Shown: positions 2-36,550 of the stretch, piece by piece
Layout: each line of letters opens with the position of its first letter
Numbering within the stretch: position 1 is the first letter of the stretch
From: Oligoflexales bacterium
GTDB lineage: Bacteria > Bdellovibrionota_B > Oligoflexia > Oligoflexales > JAGOVF01
Length of the DNA: 47,904 nucleotides
Direction: 5' to 3'
Assembly: GCA_018060885.1 (NCBI GenBank)
Contig: JAGOVF010000007.1
Span: 1 to 47,904, forward strand
The notes under the pieces: generated by a model
Told to the model about the DNA's origin: nothing
What the model saw: the letters and a program-made list of their open reading frames with translations, nothing else
The model's database searches: none
Translations under genes and position numbers: made by a program

Positions 2-802
2 TCTAAGACCCCCACTGAACAAGTTCCGCCGATTATAGTGGGCCGTGGTCTAATGACCCTGCTTAATGCAGAAATTGGCAGCGAAATTTCTCTTATAGCC
101 CCGCACGAGAGTTCCATAAGCAGTGTGAGTCGCTTTAAAATCGTTGGAACTTATTATTCGGGTCTGAACCACTATGACGACAAAATTGCCTTTGCCCCTT
201 TGCGCGCTGCGCAGCTTTTTATGAATATGGGTGACATAGTTACCGGGCTTGAAGTCGGATTATTTGAGCCTATGCAAAGTCCGCTAATAGCAGAAAAGCT
301 TGAGTCCAAGTATCCGCTCTCCATTAAAGAGTGGCAGTCGATCAATCGGCCTATTTTTGAAGCGATGAAAATGGAACGCAATGTGATCGGAATTATTGTA
401 GCTCTGGTCGCCTTGGTTGCAAGCTTCAATATCTTAACGACGATGTTTGTCGCAGTGACGCAAAAGCAGCGGGATATTTCATTACTAAAAGCATTAGGCT
501 CAACGAATATGCGCATTCTCGCAATTTTTATTAAACAGGGCGCGTTGATAGCAGTGGTAGGGTGTCTGCTTGGCACTGTGTTGGCAGTCGCACTCAGTGA
601 AACTATTAAGCGCTATGATATTATTAAACTGCCGGATATTTATTTGCTCGCAAGATTGCCGATAGAATACGACTGGCGGGTGTATGGCATGGTCGTAGGT
701 ATAAGTATTTTTATGGCTATGATTGCGAGTCTTGGCCCTGCAATTATTGCGGCACGTGTATCACCTTCGCAAGGCTTTAGGAGTCTAGAACTTGGAACCT
801 GA
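2..802 (+). CDS. LolC/LolE-type lipoprotein-releasing ABC transporter permease, C-terminal part
   Basis: The reading frame is open from the first bases of the window, so the gene begins upstream and only its C-terminal two thirds or so is visible. The visible part has a periplasmic stretch followed by three hydrophobic segments (starting near VIGIIVALVALVASF, ILAIFIKQGALIAVVG and VYGMVVGISIFMAMI). The cytoplasmic loop QKQRDISLLKALGSTNMRI is the coupling-type motif of the FtsX/LolE family. LolC/LolE work with the LolD ATPase in the inner membrane to release outer-membrane lipoproteins to LolA. That fits a genome this rich in lipoproteins. LolC versus LolE, or a MacB-like exporter, cannot be separated from this fragment. 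An internal GTG at 38 is not a believable start. Confidence 0.75.
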   Translation, partial: SKTPTEQVPPIIVGRGLMTLLNAEIGSEISLIAPHESSISSVSRFKIVGTYYSGLNHYDDKIAFAPLRAAQLFMNMGDIVTGLEVGLFEPMQSPLIAEKLESKYPLSIKEWQSINRPIFEAMKMERNVIGIIVALVALVASFNILTTMFVAVTQKQRDISLLKALGSTNMRILAIFIKQGALIAVVGCLLGTVLAVALSETIKRYDIIKLPDIYLLARLPIEYDWRVYGMVVGISIFMAMIASLGPAIIAARVSPSQGFRSLELGT

Positions 803-1490
803 AAATAAAGAAGCTAAAGAAACTAAAGACAATAAAGAAAAACCAAAGGCTGCTTTTCTTGACCTGGAGATGCACGGTAGTCTGATACGACTAAAATTGA
901 AGGATAAAAAGTATTTTACTTTTGCGCATCGTTTTGAAAAATTATTTGAGTTTGCGGCAAAGATTAGTGATGAGCCTTATCGTTTATTTTTTTACAAAAT
1001 GATTTGCGCTCTGCTGTTAACTAGCCATGCAAGAAAATTGCAGATACCAGAAATTAGAAAGCATATTTTTGATGTAAAAAATAGAATCATTCAATCATTG
1101 CTGAATGATTTTACCAATCGTCGAAAACTATCGTATGTTTATTTAAAGTCAAAAAATTTCCGTGTAGAACAATACTGTCCGACTTGCGCAAAGGAAAATG
1201 AAAAAGTTGAACGCGAAAAATGGAAGTTCTGTGAGAAGTGTAAAGTTGACTGGAAATTTTATGATGTTGTCTGTATTCAGCATTTTTTTAAAAGTGGAAA
1301 GCTTAATTTATTTCTTGGTGGTGAGCAGAGAAATAAATTTCCTAAAAAATTATTGAAGAAAAATGGCAAGCTTGAAGATTATGCGGAAGAGCTGATAATA
1401 GAAGAAAATCTACATTTTTCTTCGAAGAATTTATCTGCGATAGATTTGAAAAGTACTGTAGATATGTCGGAGCAGTTGCTTTTGAAATAA
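792..1490 (+). CDS. Hypothetical zinc-ribbon protein
   Basis: This 232-residue protein starts at a TTG that overlaps the end of the Lol-type permease by 11 bases, so translational coupling is likely. The N-terminus is a charged Lys/Glu-rich tail of about 20 residues. The middle is basic and rich in aromatic residues. Near residues 134-155 two CxxC pairs (CPTC and CEKC, 17 residues apart) look like a zinc ribbon. No signal peptide or membrane segment is visible. I do not recognise the family. Position downstream of a lipoprotein-export permease gives weak context only. Base composition is AT-rich like the neighbours. Confidence 0.6.
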   Translation: MEPENKEAKETKDNKEKPKAAFLDLEMHGSLIRLKLKDKKYFTFAHRFEKLFEFAAKISDEPYRLFFYKMICALLLTSHARKLQIPEIRKHIFDVKNRIIQSLLNDFTNRRKLSYVYLKSKNFRVEQYCPTCAKENEKVEREKWKFCEKCKVDWKFYDVVCIQHFFKSGKLNLFLGGEQRNKFPKKLLKKNGKLEDYAEELIIEENLHFSSKNLSAIDLKSTVDMSEQLLLK

Positions 1491-1554
1491 ATTTATCAAC
1501 TTTCTTTTACTTGATTTTAATTTTCGGACATTCACATATTTATACAATATTCAT

Positions 1555-1713
1555 TTAGAAAGCATGAAGCCTAGGCCGGGCAGGCAGGAGTGGCAGAGGA
1601 CCGCTCAATTTTTAAGCCATCCATGGCAAAATTATCGCTACGGGTTCGGGCTCCTGCCCTCACCAGTTCCTCTGGCACTCCTGCCTGCCCGGCCTAGGCT
1701 TCATGCTTTCTAA
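1555..1713 (+). repeat. Giant hairpin repeat, copy 1 (type L, loop in plus orientation)
   Basis: A 46-nt left arm (1555-1600) pairs with a 46-nt right arm (1668-1713) with one mismatch at 1593. Between them lies a 67-nt loop (1601-1667) nearly identical to the loops at 1927-1993, 34847-34914 and 35187-35379. The outer arm begins TTAGAAAGCATGAAGCC and shares this border with the copy at 34797. It lies between two convergent genes. It has no T-run and is far larger than a terminator. Confidence 0.9.
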
Positions 1714-1882
1714 TGTATTTCTGTTAAGAATATTTGTATGCCGAAGTTCTCAACAAGAGAACCACGTTGAAAACCTTAGTTCTCTAAAATTCATTTGGAG
1801 AGTAATTTAATACGAAGACTATAATAAACAAAAGTAGCCGGATGAATTTTGAACTGCGCCGGCTCTCTGATCTGAAATTCAC

Positions 1883-2037
1883 TTTAGTCTGTAGCTTGCT
1901 GCGTCTGTGCCTTGCCTGCCAGAGGAACTGGTGAGGGCAGGAGCCCGAACCCGTAGCGATAATTTTGCCATGGATGGCTTAAAAATAGAGCGGTCCTCTG
2001 GCAGGCAAGGCACAGACGCAGCAGGCTACAGACTAAA
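1883..2037 (-). repeat. Giant hairpin repeat, copy 2 (type R, loop in minus orientation)
   Basis: Arms 1883-1926 and 1994-2037 are 44 nt each, with one difference that still allows a G-T wobble. The 67-nt loop (1927-1993) is the reverse complement of the copy 1 loop with a single substitution. The outer arm starts TTTAGTCTGTAGC, the border shared with the copy at 35148. Together with copy 1 it forms a head-to-head pair separated by a 169-base spacer (1714-1882) in which I see no gene. Confidence 0.9.
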
Positions 2038-2114
2038 AGAAAATTGAATAAATGTGTGCATGAGCAAAGAGCTGTAACGTCTCATATTTTATCAATAACA
2101 TATCGCAAGAAGAT

Positions 2115-2885
2115 TTATTTCGTTCCGTCTTGCCATGGAAAACGCTGTTTCAAATATTCCGGAAGTACTTTATTTACAGACATAACAAACAAATCTTCTG
2201 CAACTTCTTTTGGTGAAAGCAATTGCTTTTCTGTATACAAACCGATGAACTTATCAACTTCAGGGAAGTCTTGTTTATTTTGGGTGCGGATTAACGTTTG
2301 CATGGGAGTGTCGACAATCCCCGGTGCATAATCTATAACCCTAAGTGTTCCTGTATTCGTTTTTCTAGATTTCCTCGCTACTTGATACTCTTTTACCAGA
2401 CAACGACTCAGCATACTTAGCGCTGCTTTGCTTGTACAATAAGCGGTCCAGCTCGCATAAGCATTTTCTGCTGCGCCCGAGGATAGATTTATAACTGTTA
2501 AATAATCAAACTTTCCGCTTTGCAAAAAAAGTTGTATAAGATGGCAAGGAGCTACGACATTTAATGACAGTGCTTTTTCAAAGTCGTTAATTTCCAAATT
2601 TGCCAGAGGTTTTATGGGTTCTAAAGTTGCGGCATTGTTTATAAGCACGAGTTGGCTGTAATGGTTACTTAAAAAGGGAAGTATATTTTCTTTTATAAGC
2701 TTTTTACGATCAGAACTTTTGTTCAAGTCTGATTGAAAATGATAGTACTCACCAGTTAGTGTTACTGCTTTGCGCGCAACACCTAAAACACACCAGTCTT
2801 CCGCCAAGAACTTTTCTGCGCAAGCAAAGCCCACCCCTGAACTAGTGCCAGTGATGAGTGCTAAGTTTAAATTTTTAGAGGACAT
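2115..2885 (-). CDS. Short-chain dehydrogenase/reductase, sepiapterin/benzil-reductase-like
   Basis: This 256-residue protein is a classical SDR. The dinucleotide-binding TGTSSGVG sits at residues 12-19. An NNAA motif follows near residue 85. The catalytic set is the Ser of INLSSG with YCTSK (YxxxK), and PGIVDTPM follows the active site. SDRs carry out NAD(P)H-dependent carbonyl/alcohol interconversion in the cytoplasm. The overall pattern, including PGIVDTPMQ, resembles sepiapterin reductase and bacterial benzil reductase. The substrate cannot be told from sequence. It runs convergently toward the hairpin-repeat pair and is followed upstream, on the same strand, by the nuclease gene after a 46-base gap. 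Confidence 0.85.
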   Translation of the reverse strand: MSSKNLNLALITGTSSGVGFACAEKFLAEDWCVLGVARKAVTLTGEYYHFQSDLNKSSDRKKLIKENILPFLSNHYSQLVLINNAATLEPIKPLANLEINDFEKALSLNVVAPCHLIQLFLQSGKFDYLTVINLSSGAAENAYASWTAYCTSKAALSMLSRCLVKEYQVARKSRKTNTGTLRVIDYAPGIVDTPMQTLIRTQNKQDFPEVDKFIGLYTEKQLLSPKEVAEDLFVMSVNKVLPEYLKQRFPWQDGTK

Positions 2886-32721: not shown

Positions 32722-33846
32722 ATGAATAGCAATATCATCCCTCAAACTCCAGATCTACAATGGCTTAATTCATTTGTGCATGAAAGTTTGGTGAAAGCGC
32801 CAGGCTATGAATTAGATGCGCCAGATATAAAAATTAAGTTAGATCAAAATGAAAGTCCATGGGACTGGCCTAGTGATTTAAAAGCAGCGATTCTTAAAGA
32901 ACTTTCAAATGCTGCGTGGAATCGTTATCCGCAGCCTTTCCCAATAGAACTACAAAGGATGGTGGCTAAGCATGTTGGTGTTGCGCCAGAAAATATTTTA
33001 CTCAGTCCAGGTTCTAATCATTTGATAAGTGTTTTGCTAAATGTTTTTACGCAAAATAACACGGGAAAAGTCGTCATAGCCCGGCCGTCGTTTCCGCTCT
33101 ACGAAGCACATTGTCGATATATGGGAATAGCATATGAGCCTTGGTGTCTTAACGATAGTTTTGATTATGATCTGCAGTTGTTGCCCGATCTGACTCCAGG
33201 CTCCATTGTTTTGTTTGCTTCGCCGAACAATCCAACTGGTACGTCGCTTTCATACAAAGCTTTTGAAAGCCTTTTATTAAAATATCCAAAAGTTTTGTTT
33301 ATGGCTGATGAAGCTTATTTTGAGTTTGCTGAAGAGCCTTACACGCCATTGCTTGAAAAGTATAACAATCTTATTTTGATAAGAACTTTTTCTAAGACTC
33401 TTGGAACAGCTGGTCTCAGGTTGGGTTATATGGTTGGGCATCAGTCTTATATCGAGTTGACACGAAAATTAATGTTGCCATTTACTATTAACGTAATGAC
33501 TGATGTCGCTTTGCGTTACATATTAAATCATAGCGACGCGAAAAAAATTCTCGAAAAAAATATTAACAATGCAAAAAACGAGCGTAGCTTTTTGTATAAT
33601 AAGCTATTGGATTTATCAAAAAAGCAGAATTTTAAAGTCAAAGCATCGGAGGCTAATTTTCTTTTAGTGCAATGGCCTACTAATGAAAGTGGCTTAGCAG
33701 CTTACGGACAATTGGTCGCGAAGGGAATTTTAGTTCGAAATGTGACGCGCGGCCCAGGATTGGCCGGGTGTTTGCGTATTACAGTCGGGACTCGGGAGGA
33801 GAACCTGGCTTTACTTGCGGTACTGACAGATTTTTCTGGCGCTTAA
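32722..33846 (+). CDS. hisC: Histidinol-phosphate aminotransferase-like enzyme
   Basis: This PLP enzyme of about 374 residues is of fold type I. It has the HisC opening KLDQNESPWDWP, the SPGSNHLISVLL cofactor loop, SPNNPTGT, the DEAYFEF motif, the Schiff-base Lys in TFSKTLGTAGLRLGY, and the C-terminal GCLRITVGTREEN. HisC converts imidazole-acetol phosphate to histidinol phosphate; close relatives act on aromatic amino acids. No other his gene is nearby. The ATG at 32722 is chosen because the GGAG at 32705 is too close to the ATG at 32710; spacing is long in either case. The 3' end overlaps the convergent radical SAM gene by 68 bases. Confidence 0.88.
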   Translation: MNSNIIPQTPDLQWLNSFVHESLVKAPGYELDAPDIKIKLDQNESPWDWPSDLKAAILKELSNAAWNRYPQPFPIELQRMVAKHVGVAPENILLSPGSNHLISVLLNVFTQNNTGKVVIARPSFPLYEAHCRYMGIAYEPWCLNDSFDYDLQLLPDLTPGSIVLFASPNNPTGTSLSYKAFESLLLKYPKVLFMADEAYFEFAEEPYTPLLEKYNNLILIRTFSKTLGTAGLRLGYMVGHQSYIELTRKLMLPFTINVMTDVALRYILNHSDAKKILEKNINNAKNERSFLYNKLLDLSKKQNFKVKASEANFLLVQWPTNESGLAAYGQLVAKGILVRNVTRGPGLAGCLRITVGTREENLALLAVLTDFSGA

Positions 33847-34729
33847 AACGGCGGACAAAATTGCATTTTTGACAAAGTTTTTCGCGAAGTTCGCCCAGCT
33901 GGAACCCTTGCCGCATATTCTCGGCACGCGGGCTAGCAAGAATCGATTCTAAACTTGCTGTGTTTATATTGCCGAGACTTAAAACACCTTCTTTGTCTAG
34001 GCAGCAAGGAACGACCGCGCCATCTACATGTATGCCAATATGAGAATTGAGACCGTAGCAGGTGCCTTTGGATCCAAGGTTTGGCAGTGCTAAATCCGGC
34101 CAAATAAACTCGCTGTCAAAGTTTATATATAAACGCCCACGAAGATTAAAAGACTTTTTCTTGCGTAAATTTAACTCTTCCGGCATTTGCGCATTGAATC
34201 TTTCTCTTACTGAACTAAATAATTCATCCTCTTCGTTTGCTAAATTTTTAGCGGCATCCTGTAAATTCCAAAGCCGGTAATTAATATAAAGCTCAGGCCG
34301 AAGCTGGAGAGCTTCTTCGGTAAAATTAAAGATGCGATCTAGATAGGTAATTAAGTTGCCATTTGGGAAGTTCACTCGAAAGCTATGCAGTGAAAAATTG
34401 ATTTGCTTGACTGTGGGATTAAGCAAAGATTTATAGATCTGCTTACGCAACAAAACTCCATTGCTGGTGAGATTGACTGCGACGGAGTAATTTTTGCAAA
34501 TTTCAATAAGCTGAGGCAAATGCGGATGAAGGAGTGGTTCTCCCATTAAATGCAAGGCGACTTGTTTAGTTTTGCCAGCAAGCATGGATATTCGTTTTTC
34601 GAAATCTTCGAGTGAAATGTGACTTTTTTCACGATGGACTTCCGGACAGAAGCTACATTTGAGATTACAGCTGTTGGTGATCTCTAAATGGATTTTTTGA
34701 AAAACATGTTTGGATGAAGTTAGCGACAT
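33779..34729 (-). CDS. Radical SAM protein with SPASM-type C-terminus
   Basis: The radical SAM cluster motif CNLKCSFCP lies close to the N-terminus, followed by HLMGEPLLHP (the GE motif) and LTSNGVLL. The C-terminal part has Cys residues in GTCYGLNSHIGIHVDG, VVPCCLDKEG and KLCQKCNFVRR, arranged like a SPASM auxiliary-cluster domain. The LGNINTASLESIL stretch is also typical. SPASM enzymes often modify ribosomal peptides or sugars, but no precursor peptide gene was seen nearby. The ATG at 34729 gives a normal N-terminus; the frame opens at a TTG at 34789 next to the hairpin repeat. No clear ribosome site is visible for either. Confidence 0.83.
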   Translation of the reverse strand: MSLTSSKHVFQKIHLEITNSCNLKCSFCPEVHREKSHISLEDFEKRISMLAGKTKQVALHLMGEPLLHPHLPQLIEICKNYSVAVNLTSNGVLLRKQIYKSLLNPTVKQINFSLHSFRVNFPNGNLITYLDRIFNFTEEALQLRPELYINYRLWNLQDAAKNLANEEDELFSSVRERFNAQMPEELNLRKKKSFNLRGRLYINFDSEFIWPDLALPNLGSKGTCYGLNSHIGIHVDGAVVPCCLDKEGVLSLGNINTASLESILASPRAENMRQGFQLGELREKLCQKCNFVRRFKRQKNLSVPQVKPGSPPESRL

Positions 34730-34796
34730 GCCATGGTCATAATTCGTCTTGGTGTTTTTATCAAGGGTTACATGGACACATTCAATCAACTTTCAT

Positions 34797-34964
34797 TTAG
34801 AAAACATGATGCCTAGGCCCCGGGGGTGATAAAGAGTGCCAGAGGACCGCTCAATTTTTATGCCATCCATGGCAAAATTTTCGCTACGGGTTCGGGCATC
34901 CCGCCCTCACCAGTTCCTCTGGCACTCTTTATCACCCCCGGGGCCTAGGCATCATGTTTTCTAA
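34797..34964 (+). repeat. Giant hairpin repeat, copy 3 (type L, loop in plus orientation)
   Basis: Arms 34797-34846 and 34915-34964 are a perfect 50-bp inverted repeat. The 68-nt loop (34847-34914) matches copies 1 and 2 except for a few substitutions and one extra base in the small GGGC-GCCC hairpin. The outer border TTAGAAAACATGATGCC matches copy 1. The middle of the stem (CCCCGGGGGTGATAAAG) has no counterpart in copy 1 but is fully paired here. Confidence 0.92.
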
Positions 34965-35147
34965 TGTAATTTTGAGTTCAAATCATTCGCTGATGAATTT
35001 CGCGAACGAATTATAATGGACACCTTAAGCATTTAAACATTTTGGGATCAAAGTCTGCAGTCCGAGGAGCTTGTTGAACGGAATTTTTGAAAAACAACAG
35101 CCGAATTAATTGAGTACTCTGCGTATGCACCCAGTACTGATAGTCAC

Positions 35148-35418
35148 TTAAGTATGTAGCTTGGTGCTGCCTTGCCTGCCAGAGGAACTGGTGAGGGCAG
35201 GAGCCCGAACCCGTAGCGAAAATTTTGCCATGGATGGCAAGGGGCTGCTCATAATTAAGGAGAACAAGGCAGACCGAAATGAGAAAACCGGAATGTACAT
35301 TCGAGGTACATGAGGATTTTCGAATGAGGTCTAACGCAGTTATCATTTATTATGAGCAGCCCCTTAGAAAATTGAGCGGTCCTCTGGCAGGCAAGGCAGC
35401 ACCAAGCTACATACTAAA
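35148..35418 (-). repeat. Giant hairpin repeat, copy 4 (type R, loop in minus orientation, interrupted)
   Basis: Arms 35148-35186 and 35380-35418 (39 nt, one mismatch) enclose a loop that is the reverse complement of the copy 1-3 loop but is split by a 127-bp insertion at 35239-35365. Without the insert the loop is 66 nt. The outer border TTAAGTATGTAGCTTGG matches copy 2. Confidence 0.9.
35239..35365. mobile_element. 127-bp MITE-like element inserted in hairpin copy 4
   Basis: The insert is bounded by perfect 17-bp terminal inverted repeats (AAGGGGCTGCTCATAAT at 35239-35255 and its complement at 35349-35365). It can fold further: AGACC at 35271-35275 pairs with GGTCT at 35328-35332, and an imperfect hairpin lies at 35282-35320. 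It has no coding capacity. Size and folding are reminiscent of ERIC-type elements, but sequence identity to them is not claimed. No clear target duplication could be assigned. Confidence 0.8.
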
Positions 35419-35641
35419 TGAAAATCGATAATAAGAGTGCACCACGTCGGTAATATTCATGCATCTTTGGTATAGTTTTTAATTTTTATAAAATCATAAA
35501 ATTCACAAGGTCATAAATTTTCGTAACCTGTCAAGGTTAAGTCCAATGTTTTATACTTTGACCCCCGGTATGTTAAAATGATCCTAAGACTGCCTTAGAA
35601 CAACTATAAATTTGTGCTGTGTGAAAATATGGAGTTTCTGC

Positions 35642-36550
35642 GTGTCAGATGAAACTATTATTGCAGATGTTGGGGATCTTAGTTTATTGCGAGAAAAGCG
35701 TCGTAAACGTCCCTGTTTAGTACAGTACAGTGGCCCACAACTGGGCAAAATCTATCATCTTTTGCAAGCTGAAATGACTCTAGGGCGTTCGAAAGATGAA
35801 ACAATTGTCATCGTAGATCAAAGTGTGTCTCGGCAACACGCAAAGCTTATTTTAAAAGATGATGAAACAGTTGAGGTCGAAGATCTTGGAAGTTCAAACG
35901 GTACTTTTATTAACAATACGCAAATAAAAGGCAAAGGGTTGTTGAAGGATTCTGATCTTTTGCAGTTGGGTAATATTGTTCTAAAATTTTGTGCCAGTTT
36001 TAATATCGATGCGATGGTTCAAGATCGAATTTATCAAATGTCGGTGATAGATAATGTCACGAAAATATTTAATCGCAAATATTTGATGGATACCTTAGAG
36101 ATTGAATTTAAGCAGGCACAAAATTCAAAACATCCGCTTTCATTAATTTATTATGACTTGGACCATTTTAAAAAGGTGAATGACACTTATGGACACAATG
36201 CTGGGGACGCAGTTCTGTATGAAAGTGCTCAGTTGGTAAAATCTATTGTTCGGAAAGACGATATTTTAGGTCGTCTTGGTGGCGAAGAGTTTGTCATCGT
36301 GCTTCCAGATACAGATTCTAAGACGGCTTTTGAATTGGCAGAAAGAGTCAGACACGCACTTGAGATGAAAACTTTTGAATTAGAAATTGTAAGTGAAGGT
36401 TTGAAAAAAAGAATTCTATATAAGCAGACTATTTCTTTGGGCGTTGCTCAATATAGTGCGGCCATGACAAAACCAGAAGACCTATTGGAAGTTGCCGACC
36501 AGAAGCTTTATTTGTCTAAAAATAATGGACGTAATAGAGTAACTATATAG
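35642..36550 (+). CDS. FHA-GGDEF diguanylate cyclase
   Basis: This protein of about 302 residues joins an N-terminal FHA domain (LGRSKDETIVI, VSRQHAKLIL, LGSSNGTFIN) to a GGDEF domain with the active site GRLGGEEFVIVLP. Five residues before the GGEEF is RKDD, an RxxD inhibitory site for c-di-GMP feedback. The protein should make c-di-GMP in the cytoplasm, gated by binding of the FHA domain to a phosphothreonine partner. FHA-GGDEF proteins are known from predatory and other deltaproteobacterial-type bacteria. The GTG at 35642 has GGAG seven bases upstream, so the opening at 35612 is rejected. Hairpin copies 3 and 4 lie just upstream. Confidence 0.93.
   Translation: MSDETIIADVGDLSLLREKRRKRPCLVQYSGPQLGKIYHLLQAEMTLGRSKDETIVIVDQSVSRQHAKLILKDDETVEVEDLGSSNGTFINNTQIKGKGLLKDSDLLQLGNIVLKFCASFNIDAMVQDRIYQMSVIDNVTKIFNRKYLMDTLEIEFKQAQNSKHPLSLIYYDLDHFKKVNDTYGHNAGDAVLYESAQLVKSIVRKDDILGRLGGEEFVIVLPDTDSKTAFELAERVRHALEMKTFELEIVSEGLKKRILYKQTISLGVAQYSAAMTKPEDLLEVADQKLYLSKNNGRNRVTI

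Follow-up and report, generated by a model that had tools for sequence, protein, structure and literature searches.

Two mirrored hairpin pairs in the window

The window, by which we mean the whole stretch of 47,904 nucleotides analysed here, contains two intergenic pairs of giant hairpins that we assign below to the Rfam family TwoAYGGAY (RF01731). An earlier note, made from the sequence alone, had described near-perfect stems in both pairs and placed one pair in a convergent and the other in a divergent gap. The inverted arms and their folding confirm the stems, with z-scores against shuffled sequences of -17 for 1555-1713 (folded as RNA) and -15.6 for 1883-2037 (folded as DNA), and the flanking genes bear out the gap types: pair 1 lies between convergent genes at 792-1490 (+) and 2115-2885 (-), and pair 2 between divergent genes at 33779-34789 (-) and 35612-36550 (+). 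The features are as follows.

1523-2068: unit 1, 546 bp, in the order degenerate end, left hairpin, spacer, right hairpin, degenerate end
1523-1541, plus strand: left terminal inverted repeat of unit 1 (TTCGGACATTCACATATTT), decayed, matching the consensus CTACGTGATGCACACATTT at 12 of 19 positions
1555-1713, minus strand (the TwoAYGGAY-sense strand): left hairpin 1, with a 46-bp stem topped by a three-way junction that bears two GGA loops; inverted arms 1555-1600/1668-1713 (46 nt, 98%)
1714-1882: spacer of unit 1, from an alignment of 15 units
1883-2037, plus strand (the TwoAYGGAY-sense strand): right hairpin 1, with a 44-bp stem; RF01731 at 41.0 bits (cut-off 43); inverted arms 1883-1926/1994-2037 (44 nt, 98%)
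2050-2068, minus strand: right terminal inverted repeat of unit 1 (TTTGCTCATGCACACATTT read on the minus strand), 14 of 19 positions matching the consensus
34768-35449: unit 2, approximate bounds, the left end being too decayed for exact placing
34797-34964, minus strand: left hairpin 2, RF01731 match at 34809-34952 with 42.3 bits (cut-off 43); inverted arms 34786-34846/34915-34975 (61 nt, 92%)
34965-35147: spacer of unit 2, from an alignment of units
35148-35418, plus strand: right hairpin 2, its tip interrupted by a hairpin of a second repeat family; inverted arms 35148-35186/35380-35418 (39 nt, 97%)
35239-35365: the inserted second-family hairpin, about 127 bp, with about 9 copies in the genome
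35430-35449, minus strand: right terminal inverted repeat of unit 2 (CGACGTGGTGCACTCTTATT read on the minus strand), 5 mismatches to the consensus

The ends of unit 1 were placed where the sequence best fits the end consensus drawn from the whole genome, with 7 and 5 mismatches in 19, while the automatic search gave 9 and 9 mismatches for unit 2 and placed no ends, its bounds coming from inspection of the sequence. The architecture that the earlier note saw shared by the two pairs stands, but the enlarged loop at 35148-35418 has to be corrected to an ordinary loop with an insert: it is large because an unrelated repeated hairpin is inserted there, which also makes unit 2 longer than other units.

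The second repeat family likewise consists of giant hairpins, with a conserved structured core (AAGGAGAACAAGGCAGACCG...GTACATGAGGATTTTCG) on variable self-complementary stems, and its hairpin has no Rfam match. Its other copies in the genome lie at C4:32705, C162:1631, C36:43821, C252:23881, C197:42290 and 30892, C30:45291 and C57:270. Two of the copies are lodged in first-family tips, and a weakly similar hairpin occurs in a genome of another bacterial family (L207 in G024).

Copies, ends and mobility of the unit

The genome from which the window comes (G000) is a MAG of 266 contigs and 3.65 Mb, 93.5% complete. Its aspartyl-tRNA synthetase finds its closest match in an Oligoflexales MAG, at 53%, so that the host probably belongs to the uncultured Oligoflexia. 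Searching it with the 87-nt tip as query gave 41 matches, and a covariance model built from 46 copies gave 58 tip matches. The same model found none in 57 other genomes of the phylum, the exact tip pattern was absent from GTDB contigs and IMG/VR, and blastn of the element against plasmids and phages returned no match. Sixteen head-to-head left/right pairs are seen in G000, and the tip runs in the same direction, from the outer end inwards, in every one of the 48 hairpins whose stem could be measured. The left/right pairing in one orientation proposed in the earlier note thus holds across the genome, and copies in G000 are not mostly single or randomly oriented, because the unpaired hairpins are mostly truncated or degenerate, or lie at contig ends or beside a degenerate or deleted partner. 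Decay products include partners that lack the tip and keep a short palindrome, fused units and truncated units.

Two of the tip-less hairpins, the right-side hairpin of the unit at C162:13887 (L121) and the left-side hairpin at C212:451 (L089), keep a short perfect palindrome, which suggests loss at the stem tip. The tip is inverted in two further hairpins, both cut off by contig ends (C139 and C263). Apparently the same hairpins are present in two contigs each with opposite tips (C139:27548 with C9:151, and C263:3758 with C184:21346), reflecting either assembly ambiguity at the palindrome or a real flip-flop; we did not retain tip flip-flop, since both inverted cases end inside the hairpin and an assembly effect is likely. 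Separately, one unit (C253 near 7180, L081) is adjoined by CGTCATTCTGAACGAAGTGAAGAATCTC, which we take to be reminiscent of a widespread bacterial palindromic repeat.

The 13 units that are neither truncated nor enlarged by a big insert span 538-580 bp including both ends, and the order is a terminal inverted repeat of about 19 bp, the left hairpin, a spacer of about 170 bp, the mirrored right hairpin and the other terminal repeat. The outer ends claimed for the unit recur as inverted sequences at unit borders, with the consensus CTACGTGATGCACACATTT and 0-3 mismatches in the best-preserved units. In the alignment of 15 units, the inner flanks of the hairpins resemble the outer-end sequence in inverted form, and the spacers of different units are homologous yet divergent. 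The terminal repeats of some units are very divergent, and it is doubtful that these serve as transposase sites.

Flanking direct repeats of at least 6 nt, resembling target duplications (TSD-like), accompany 5 of 14 units, compared with 4 of 182 mismatched flank pairs and 1.3% of random flanks. The putative duplications are 6-7 bp long, three of the five being 7 nt (GATAACT, AAGATTC and CTTTATA), and four of the five units have well-kept ends; the match flanking the C176 unit may be due to chance. Where present, these repeats sit 0-4 nt from the end consensus, and they are missing in 9 of 14 units, including most decayed units. Together, the dispersal, the ends and the flanking repeats indicate a transposable element without a gene of its own. 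A search of the genome with the end pattern led to sites beside hairpins or their remnants, with no ORF-bearing relative among the loci read in this incomplete assembly. Neither a transposase nor an autonomous copy nor an empty site came to light, which counts against a MITE-like nature. The earlier view of a non-coding mobile family with outer ends and left/right pairing is supported by the inverted ends, the TSD-like repeats and the 16 pairs; the idea that it matches no known family does not survive the RF01731 match.

TwoAYGGAY identity and the evolution of stem and tip

An Rfam search at relaxed threshold identified the hairpins as TwoAYGGAY at full length, on the strand read from the inside of the unit outwards. 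Among the 31 matches listed for G000, 14 score above the gathering cut-off of 43 bits, the best reaches 48.3 bits and all are full length (1-168); none of 53 relatives or 14 control genomes had an RF01731 match. A search at the gathering cut-off misses the copies in the window because left hairpin 2 and right hairpin 1 score just below it, and an E-value search recovers them; left hairpin 1 was assigned through sister copies. Reciprocally, a model of the new hairpins matches a clostridial TwoAYGGAY copy (L299) with an E-value of 2.8e-4, and others more weakly. Matches to MIR4240, MIR8562 and mir-657 fell far below their own cut-offs and were rejected as long-hairpin noise.

TwoAYGGAY was reported in 2010 by Weinberg et al. 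as an RNA candidate whose function is not known, probably an RNA and not cis-regulatory (PMC2864571). We found it in 35 of 391 sampled clostridial genomes, most with several dispersed copies, and 40 clostridial stretches contained giant hairpins with GGA loops and self-complementary stems that differ between copies of some genomes. The present hairpins share with the motif the full-length covariance-model match, two GGA apical loops on junction arms and a poorly conserved long external stem. They differ from it in several ways: they form constant head-to-head pairs within a unit bounded by inverted ends, the evidence favours maintenance of the stem at the DNA level, and the phyla given for the motif in 2010 do not include theirs (PMC2864571). 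The fixed pair within an ended unit is the special feature here, since most clostridial copies stand alone; a cluster in G237 consists of neighbouring hairpins in the same outward arrangement. Another clostridial locus (L315 in G281) carries two tandem AAAAATGCCATGGATGGCATTTTT palindromes, at 639-662 and 940-963, unlike the mirrored pairs. We considered as a possible autonomous copy a clostridial hairpin pair 1.1 kb apart and rejected it, as it flanks an acetyltransferase-like and an unknown ORF with no evident transposase.

In G000 each hairpin module has a stem, mostly of 36-55 bp, that carries a three-way-junction tip of conserved sequence with its two GGA loops. Averaged over pairs of copies, identity is about 0.96 in the tip and 0.52-0.63 in ends, stems and inner flanks, and the stems are 98% self-complementary despite this divergence between copies. 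Across 48 stems (33 to 63 in length, with arms of equal length in 44) we counted 2007 Watson-Crick pairs, 9 G.T, 9 A.C, 19 other mismatches and 5 gaps, and perfect pairing ends near the same TTTAG/GAGTC border in most copies. In 34 nearest-neighbour comparisons, which share members and so are not independent, the outer arm had 165 substitutions and 77 indels and the inner arm 177 and 77, with only 45 unpaired positions. Mirrored indels are as expected from copying one arm off the other, and template switching at replication is an established route to homogenised stem arms (PMC8794818). Selection for pairing as RNA is not supported, since G.U, expected to be better tolerated than A.C on a functional strand, is not in excess here (9 versus 9); in the clostridial stems the figures are likewise similar, at 57 versus 47, a count that includes poorly paired outer flanks. 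The best-supported reading of these sequence comparisons, though not a proof, is that the stems are kept perfect at the DNA level and not by a selected RNA fold. Selection on a DNA cruciform could also keep them perfect without copying.

The tip evolves differently, with only about ten aligned columns in which two or more copies vary, most of them loop or unpaired positions, and one tip pair changed from U-A to C-G in four copies. GGA is present in both loops of all 48 hairpins (in one of them within a shifted stem); loop 1 is close to AYGGAY, and loop 2, often of 4-5 nt, holds GGA and is not strictly AYGGAY. In the one-third of hairpins whose ends have decayed furthest, tips are 96.8% identical to the consensus and stems 98.6% self-complementary, and end decay is uncorrelated with either tip identity or stem self-complementarity (Spearman 0.04 and 0.02). 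Global gene conversion of tips as the sole cause is rejected because the left and right tips within a unit resemble each other more closely than do tips from different units (0.972 versus 0.944, permutation p 2e-4). The constancy of the tip looks like recognition by something.

Competing explanations and implications

We consider it probable that the unit is a non-autonomous, MITE-like element of about 550 bp whose palindromes are re-copied as DNA and whose tip is held by selection or by use in recognition. A transposase encoded elsewhere would act on the element ends. After insertion, replication would repeatedly copy one arm from the other by template switching inside the hairpin, while selection, or recurrent service as a recognition site, would keep the tip constant. 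The element resembles bacterial MITEs such as ERIC, Correia and RU in being short and non-coding, with inverted ends, target duplication and high copy number, and differs from them in its two internal giant palindromes and strongly conserved structured tip. The double-hairpin elements cited in PMC2800124, which we liken to it by layout, belong to mitochondrial DNA. They too have two hairpins per mobile non-coding element, and they are much smaller.

A possible but rather unlikely alternative is that the hairpins act as CsrA-binding RNA, that is, as decoys or regulators transcribed from gene 3' ends, with two GGA loops and selection on the tip and stem of each copy. CsrA binding has been proposed from the TwoAYGGAY loops, and CsrA-motif matches have been reported (PMC4333381). 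The invariance of GGA while neighbouring loop letters vary, the U-A to C-G change, which is compensatory, and the conservation of tips where ends have decayed all agree with such a role, and G000 encodes CsrA in a single gene; however, relatives without the element have csrA equally, G.U is not preferred to A.C either here or in Clostridia, and indels mirrored in both arms are unexpected from step-by-step RNA compensation.

The gene context raises another alternative. Of 33 placed loci, 18 are in convergent gaps, a type that makes up 17% of the gaps across 11 stretches sampled from the genome (binomial p 1.6e-6; p 6e-4 when weighted by intergenic length), with gap classes based on mechanical ORF calls, and a stop codon often lies no more than tens of bases from the unit. 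This placement would suit a domesticated bidirectional 3'-end element serving convergent genes as terminator or mRNA 3'-end protector, a role of the kind that has been proposed for REP elements. We regard this as unlikely, as insertion at such places may just do the least harm, 15 of the 33 units are not convergent, clostridial copies have no such bias (4 of 29), and a terminator needs no conserved 68-nt tip. The flanks of the clostridial hairpins, examined for terminators, contained no clear T-tracts.

We give less credence to the idea of movement as single-stranded DNA, in which an HUH nuclease or an integrase would recognise the hairpins in single-stranded form, as happens in REPIN/RAYT and attC systems. 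The structured, sequence-conserved tip with invariant loop letters would fit, and paired inverted palindromes, intergenic and often behind genes, are shared with REPINs/BIMEs of RAYT transposases, but the TSD-like flanks favour staggered double-strand integration. REP hairpins are 20-40 nt long, and RAYT is a Y1 transposase with short GTAG-tagged REPs; membership of that group does not fit hairpins of about 155-170 nt in a unit of about 550 bp, with terminal inverted repeats, TSD-like flanks and stems specific to each copy. An assembly artefact or contaminating repeat is hardly credible: although palindromes are prone to misassembly, the genome is a MAG in many contigs, and two of these end inside a hairpin with a flipped tip, every stem is different, the flanking genes differ and many copies lie well inside contigs.

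Within the probable MITE-like reading, because the two hairpins mirror each other, any transcript that reads into a pair behind convergent genes, whichever gene it comes from, would contain one hairpin in the GGA sense. CsrA might bind these transcripts as a plausible side effect or benefit, and any use of the GGA-sense hairpin in transcripts is speculation. It is also conceivable, though quite improbable in our judgement, that the element copies its stem arms within its own replication cycle, in the manner of parvoviral terminal hairpins. The hairpin would prime synthesis at a fixed place at the foot of the stem, as the TTTAG/GAGTC border shared by most copies might suggest. If true, TwoAYGGAY would amount to a DNA palindrome that renews itself, and some of the covariation seen in the family could not be counted as evidence for an RNA.

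The finding is not categorically new, because the motif and MITE-like elements were both known; what is new here is the paired unit and its mode of evolution. It makes two ideas testable: DNA template switching may account for part of the covariation on which some RNA families rest, and a selfish palindrome may carry GGA hairpins that would engage a global regulator, CsrA for example.
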